64,000 nt of DNA from assembly GCA_947627215.1 (NCBI GenBank), contig CANQVD010000003.1, positions 62,001 to 126,000 on the forward strand, in the 5' to 3' direction. The DNA comes from an uncultured Eisenbergiella sp. Its GTDB lineage: Bacteria; Bacillota; Clostridia; Lachnospirales; Lachnospiraceae. This document shows, piece by piece, positions 37,530-37,752 of the stretch (position 1 is the stretch's first letter; every line of letters starts with the position of its first letter). A program made the translations under genes and the position numbers. The notes under the pieces are model-generated. The model had not been told where the DNA came from. It saw only the letters and a list, made by a program, of their open reading frames with translations, and made no database searches.

Positions 37530-37752
37530 TAATACTGTATTACGAGGTCCTTATCCTGTATTCGTCCCCCGCTGTACTGTATTACGGATCATCTACACAG
37601 GATTACGCGGCCTTTTTACCGTATTATCACGGTATAACACTGTATTCCCGCCGCTTTTTACTGTATTGTGAAGTCGTTACACTGGATTAAATGCTTCTAT
37701 TCCCGTACTGCGGGCCGCTAATCCTGTATTCCTGCCACTTAATACAGGATTA
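37530..37752. repeat. 21-bp-period iteron array (consensus about ACTGTATTA / ACAGGATTA)
   Basis: Motif C positions 37535, 37556, 37577, 37597, 37619, 37640, 37661, 37682, (37703 degenerate), 37724, 37745. Confidence 0.8.

Follow-up and report, generated by a model that had tools for sequence, protein, structure and literature searches.

The window analysed here is a stretch of 64,000 nucleotides from an uncultured Eisenbergiella sp. (positions 62001-126000 of a 164,354-bp contig, C3), and our subject is a repeat array within its row of conjugation genes, which we consider a candidate centromere of a mobile element. The array lies in a 269-bp gap between a virB4-like gene and a gene of the DUF5697 family, both on the minus strand, and its end directly precedes the DUF5697 Shine-Dalgarno sequence AAAGGAGA (coordinates in Table 1). 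A preliminary description had placed about 11 units, one of them degenerate, between the virB4-like gene and a winged-helix gene downstream of the array, which our analysis bears out; the spacing of 20-22 bp over positions 37535-37745 given there, however, is replaced by a period of exactly 21 bp over 223 bp.

Each of the 11 units consists of a 13-bp near-palindromic core of the TAATACWGTATTA type (TAATAC-W-GTATTA type), a symmetry that the preliminary description had not recognized. Within the CnGnAnT portion of the core, the C, G, A and final T are invariant in 11/11 units, and the degenerate one is unit 9 (TATTCCCGTACTG). Autocorrelation of the array reached 0.50 at 21 bp and 0.51 at 42 bp versus ~0.25 at other lags, with a lag-21 z-score of 7.4 against dinucleotide shuffles. 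Furthermore, the array is the longest 21-bp-phased CnGnAnT run in the window (11 units), the next being a run of 2, and shuffled windows yielded runs of 1 or 2. Tandem Repeats Finder returned no report for positions 37530-37752, since the spacers between the cores are not conserved.

A symmetric position weight matrix built from the 11 units and run over the whole contig placed three clusters at the top, namely the array and two others of two units each, so that the 21-bp-phased motif also occurs at two further places of the contig, which the preliminary description had likewise missed. One of these pairs (TAATACTGTATTA and CAACACAGGATTA) lies upstream of the promoter of a parM gene 13 kb from the array, and we propose its units as ParR autoregulatory sites or minor parC sites. 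The other pair, outside the window and 49 kb from the array, is flanked by blocks of another repeat, GTGTTCCAAAAACGACGAC, which mostly recurs every 31 bp. It falls in a region where ten GTGTTCCAAAA-type repeats, again mostly at 31-bp spacing, are found between genes for proteins of 350 and 327 aa; candidate initiator genes adjoin these repeats, and the region is a probable replication origin.

The genes concerned are of two groups. Next to the array, the virB4-like protein is 38 % identical to its pCY186 relative, and the DUF5697 protein matched that family and no other in a Pfam scan; its AlphaFold model (pLDDT 82.9) shows an N-terminal winged helix with the helix-turn-helix (HTH) at residues 6-61, and weak structural and profile matches were found to MecI, MarR and MntR-like HTH domains. 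At the distant locus, ParM gave weak Pfam matches below the cut-off (MreB-like_C, 5.3e-06; ALP_N, 7.8e-4), reached up to 36 % identity to ParM relatives, has relatives annotated as ParM/StbA, and carries residues conserved in a 21-row alignment. Judged from its sequence, it qualifies as the actin-like ATPase of a type II ParMRC system. The ParR-like product of the gene downstream of parM has a predicted ribbon-helix-helix at its N-terminus (HIDLYF) and, at its C-terminus, the conserved tail LLEGLSMF, of the kind that binds ParM; most aligned ParR homologues retain such an LxxLxxF-type tail.

Neither 145 genomes nor the genome collection yielded a close relative when searched with the DUF5697 protein of the window, and relatives were therefore gathered via VirB4, ParM and the Pfam family. 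Plasmids as well as chromosomes of Clostridia encode VirB4 homologues (31-38 % identity); the DUF5697 gene mostly follows immediately downstream, and parM often belongs to the element as well. The gap ahead of DUF5697, compared in 20 related elements, contains repeats that differ in sequence between lineages (in G186, for instance, TAATGCGTCAA TAATGCGTCTT TAATGTGTAAC TAATGCGCATT TAATACGCC). Across the gaps of these 20 relatives, periodicity gave a Stouffer z of 9.96 at 11 bp, 6.1 at 22 and 3.9 at 18, with no clear positive peak at any further lag, whereas 463 control intergenic regions had a mean z of 0.18 at 11 bp; three controls exceeded 3.5, one of them being a region upstream of parM. A 21-bp phase instead of 11 bp characterizes the window element and pCY186, which are sisters on the DUF5697 tree, and the stretch from virB4 to DUF5697 in pCY186 holds a copy of IS110, flanked on either side by repeats. 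Poor conservation in relatives had been named beforehand as an outcome that would speak against a functional array; instead, position and helical phasing are kept while the sequence diverges along with ParR. Two further arrangements were seen among the relatives: a tandem DUF5697 pair in G186 (C10:76378-77685) with an 11-bp array between the genes, upstream of the second only, and 20-bp repeats of the TTACGAACCTAACTCCGAAC type before a divergent DUF5697 gene in G608 (L200), an incomplete genome in which ParM was not detected.

The motif of the gap is shared with the parM promoter. Among 11 elements, it agreed more closely with the region upstream of the element's own parM than with the corresponding regions of the others (permutation p=0.00025). 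Phased half-sites, sought with a regular expression that was effective for one motif class only, formed a single run outside the DUF5697 gap of G058b, located at parM, and the sole run found in G040C15 was likewise at parM; a crude de novo motif search, made element by element, detected the parM cluster in four cases and was noisy in others. In several relatives the parM sites, as read from the sequences, lie between -35-like and -10-like elements, a placement that would fit repression. The motif is also present at the parM promoters of G153 and G105, where DUF5697 was not found, and, by eye, at that of G124.

The evidence that bears most on the identity of the binding protein comes from covariation between ParR residues and array bases. 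In the ribbon-helix-helix fold, alternate residues of the beta-strand face the DNA, as do Gln9, Asn11 and Arg13 of Arc, and the ParR N-terminus follows the pattern xFxLxF, whose third strand contact we take to be equivalent to Arc Arg13. Where this position is Arg (four elements), RCGY in the DUF5697-gap array is followed by C at fractions of 1.0, 0.78, 1.0 and 0.67; where the position is Gln, Gly, Asn or Lys, the base is mostly another (A or G), and C stays at or below 0.14 in the 14 other elements with sites (p=0.0003, a 15th element without sites being counted as 0). A scan of all columns returned this ParR column as the sole perfect separator (1/50 ParR columns, 0/173 DUF5697 columns). On the DUF5697 tree, the distribution of Arg at this position calls for three changes, two of which fall between well-supported sisters (sub and G058b; G040C15 and G037), and the residue-base rule also holds at parM promoters, including those of G153 and G105. 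Three of the four Arg elements carry parM and array on one contig or record, G127 being the exception.

We consider it fairly probable, by comparison of sequences, that ParR of the element itself binds the array, which would thereby serve as a parC-type centromere and operator 13 kb from parMR within the conjugation cluster. From its position we had first favoured DUF5697 as the binder; ParR is now preferred because of the residue-base covariation. The preliminary description had offered an iteron origin, a parC-type centromere or a cooperative operator; the parC-type centromere is the best supported of these, since from element to element the array motif follows the residue of ParR that is predicted to contact DNA. 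A role as operator is also likely, given that the array borders on the ribosome-binding site of DUF5697, and the iteron origin is disfavoured. In our model, each 13-bp near-palindrome would take one ParR ribbon-helix-helix dimer, and the 21-bp phasing, equal to two helical turns, would bring all dimers onto one DNA face, where they may form a curved segrosome and catch ParM filaments with their C-terminal tails. Through the two units upstream of the parM promoter ParR would control its own operon, and the pair next to the replication iterons may serve to couple partition to replication. Furthermore, because the array abuts the DUF5697 ribosome-binding site within the row of conjugation genes, we propose that ParR loading would repress DUF5697 and possibly the downstream transfer genes, thereby tying vertical inheritance to transfer.

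Several observations weigh against ParR as the binder. The covariation trait was chosen after inspection of the data, and since the elements share ancestry, it amounts to three independent changes rather than 18 points; moreover, parM and array lie on different contigs, assumed to belong to the same element, in G127, G552, G204, G419, G271, G496 and G822. The window ParR itself has H, D and Y at its contacts and the window motif has no RCGY core, which puts both outside the reach of the rule. The ParR fold is weakly supported by structural prediction, although the conserved C-terminal tail fits: the best Foldseek match was pB171 ParR (2jd3; E=1.7, not significant), the single-chain AlphaFold model did not show the strand, and no Pfam match rose above the cut-off. 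In G186, G037, G496 and G269 an array is present but the region upstream of parM is without the motif, and arrays precede DUF5697 in G001, G532 and probably G608, where ParM was not found and where a ParR profile search of the genomes with arrays but no ParM gave nothing convincing; these cases either oppose ParR or reflect incomplete genomes or changed operons. Array presence, scored by a fixed threshold over 45 DUF5697 loci, was not associated with ParM presence (Fisher p=0.74), partly because coding sequence inflates lag 21 and a length of 120 bp dilutes short arrays, while a rank test of the 11-bp z-scores against ParM presence gave p=0.012. The array also stays with DUF5697 where that gene is ~23 kb from virB4 (G171b, G047).

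The main alternative binder would be DUF5697 itself, as a winged-helix autoregulator which coats the array before its own gene and, like StbA, also controls parMR and the origin region. Its winged helix is confidently predicted, the array abuts its ribosome-binding site in nearly all relatives and follows it away from virB4, the arrays of G001 and G532 come without a detected ParM, and R388 has the same layout, with repeats before stbABC, copies at other maintenance promoters and StbA repressing them (PMC3098194, PMC3937220). Against it stand the perfect separation of motif classes, achieved by a ParR column at a predicted DNA-contact position and by none of DUF5697, and the recognition-helix region of DUF5697, which varies freely inside one motif class. 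Furthermore, the motif occurs at parM promoters of genomes in which DUF5697 was not found, and G672, G705 and G733 have DUF5697 genes without an array in genomes without detected ParM. We hold DUF5697 to be an unlikely binder, though the likeliest after ParR.

The same covariation and the motif at parM promoters would be left unexplained if the array had no role in partition and were instead a cooperative operator of DUF5697 and of the transfer genes downstream, occupied by a host factor or by a further protein of the element, such as the one of 327 aa encoded near the origin. The promoter or leader position of the array relative to DUF5697 suits such an operator, and another dispersed operator-like family on the contig, GTTATYGTATATAAACARTATC, indicates that several regulators probably act there; nonetheless, we judge this quite improbable. 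Finally, the two-turn period and the winged-helix neighbour resemble Rep-iteron origins, in which a Rep protein would bind the array as an iteron set. We rejected this as very improbable, as the element has its separate GTGTTCCAAAA iterons with candidate initiator genes and the array lies between virB4 and DUF5697, not beside a plasmid initiator gene. In pCY186, too, the Rep3 gene is preceded by a separate set of iteron-like repeats, a comparable array occurs in pMM35_02, which with many housekeeping genes and an integrase is probably an integrated element, and comparable arrays precede DUF5697 in chromosomal elements.

Table 1. Features of the array, the partition locus and other repeats. Positions are those of the window unless preceded by C3 (contig).
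Feature	Position	Strand	Basis or remark
Array, proposed distal parC-type centromere and operator	37530-37752	.	phasing, z=7.4 at lag 21
Starts of the 13-bp cores	37530, 37551, 37572, 37593, 37614, 37635, 37656, 37677, 37698 (degenerate), 37719, 37740		37530+21n
DUF5697 gene, 193 aa, N-terminal winged helix and C-terminal alpha/beta domain	36917-37498	-	PF18954, E=5.7e-12
virB4-like conjugation ATPase gene, 961 aa, upstream of array, same strand as DUF5697	37768-40653	-	P-loop_TraG PF19044, 5.5e-15
parR-like gene, 150 aa, downstream of parM, proposed array binder	49311-49763	-	gene order, alignment with 20 ParR homologues
parM, actin-like ATPase gene, 321 aa	49795-50760	-	weak Pfam, annotation of relatives, conserved residues
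parM promoter, sigma70-like (-35 TTGACA 50833-50838, 17 bp, -10 TATAAT 50810-50815)	50810-50838	-	read from sequence
Two motif units, 21-bp spacing, upstream of parM promoter	50860-50893	.	position weight matrix scan
Third cluster, two units, 21-bp spacing	C3:50848-50881		position weight matrix scan
Ten GTGTTCCAAAA-type repeats, probable origin	C3:50644-51239
GTTATYGTATATAAACARTATC copies	41037-41058, 50779-50800, 57359-57380, ~30816; C3 48476, 147548, 128805, 31732, 35318
78-bp tandem repeats	50926-51413

Other repeats of the contig are recorded here for their own sake. The GTTATYGTATATAAACARTATC family numbers ~9 copies, where chance would give none in the window with 3 mismatches allowed; one copy lies just downstream of the parM -10 element, and the family likely marks the binding sites of a further regulator of the element. 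The parM sites are immediately preceded by 6.3 tandem copies of a 78-bp unit with the palindrome CGTACCCTC-TGA-GGGTACG, which also occurs near 32444 and 32567. These repeats could be another centromere or a structured element; they occupy the canonical position of parC, but the relatives examined showed nothing comparable ahead of parM, and we regard them as a less likely parC. An open reading frame (ORF) of 1482 aa (43536-47984) has internal tandem repeats of 108 bp (4.3 copies, 45576-46035) and of 45-48 bp (44357-44620), and further tandem repeats are found at 53989-54161 (15/45 bp) and 24991-25089 (18/36 bp). A single ORF (30415-32250) fuses NlpC/P60 and cell-wall hydrolase domains, which are separate genes in pCY186, and contains a copy of the GTTAT operator-like motif.

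If the proposed centromere holds, many elements would share a layout that is new, with a distal array kept next to a conserved conjugation gene, and this layout would account for the fast-changing, helically phased repeats at the DUF5697 junction; in the open-access literature, of which our coverage was limited, we did not find a description of a major array before DUF5697 with minor copies at parM and the origin. It would also give DUF5697 its first functional context, no paper on this family having been found in the open-access literature searched. Coupling of partition and conjugation would become directly testable in common elements of Clostridia, and the ParR residue-to-base rule would be a testable recognition code for partition compatibility. 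A broader proposition, which we advance tentatively and regard as doubtful, is that widespread conjugative plasmids and integrative elements of Clostridia may keep a distal centromere in the conjugation row, where ParR coats the array and switches between segregation and transfer, and that ParR residue 3 and the site base may have co-changed repeatedly, setting partition incompatibility groups.

Among known partition systems, type II ParMRC (R1, pB171, pSK41, pCW3 parC) is a close counterpart: it comprises an actin-like ParM, as here, a downstream ribbon-helix-helix-type ParR with a C-terminal tail, of which the parR-like product is a putative equivalent, and direct repeats as the sites of ParR (PMC9426499; PMC5016525). 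In the systems known so far, these direct repeats measure 10, 11, 17 or 20 bp (PMC9426499), and parC is located upstream of the par operon (PMC5016525). Here, in contrast to a single parC locus directly upstream of parM, two units lie upstream of parM, the large array of 11 is 13 kb off in the conjugation row, and two are at the origin, 49 kb from the array. Thus, likeness to a phased partition-protein array appears better supported than formal ParMRC membership, because the canonical location of parC is not the one found. A ParMRC-like system on a conjugative element is also represented by srpMRC of the SXT/R391 integrative and conjugative elements, in which, however, srpC is directly upstream of srpM (PMC4489591).

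The arrangement is also reminiscent of R388, whose stbDRs consist of 2x5 nine-bp repeats with two-base spacing (11-bp phase) before stbABC, with 2-3 copies at other maintenance promoters (PMC3098194), and whose StbA represses those promoters and links stability with transfer (PMC3098194; PMC3937220). Both share a short-repeat array beside the transfer region, extra copies at maintenance promoters and a possible link between stability and conjugation, and the 11-bp phase in our relatives, the 21-bp phase in the window and pCY186, and the minor clusters at parM and the origin agree with the R388 type of repeat. The systems differ in that the R388 repeats precede the gene of their own binder and R388 has no actin-like motor, whereas here covariation favours ParR over the adjacent winged-helix protein. 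Finally, ParM and ParR of R1 stimulate the conjugation machinery, and ParM binds the VirB4-like TraC (PMC4949242), so that there partition proteins act together with transfer proteins (PMC4949242); while the link in R1 is a contact between proteins, the one proposed for the present element would be a partition site located among the transfer genes.
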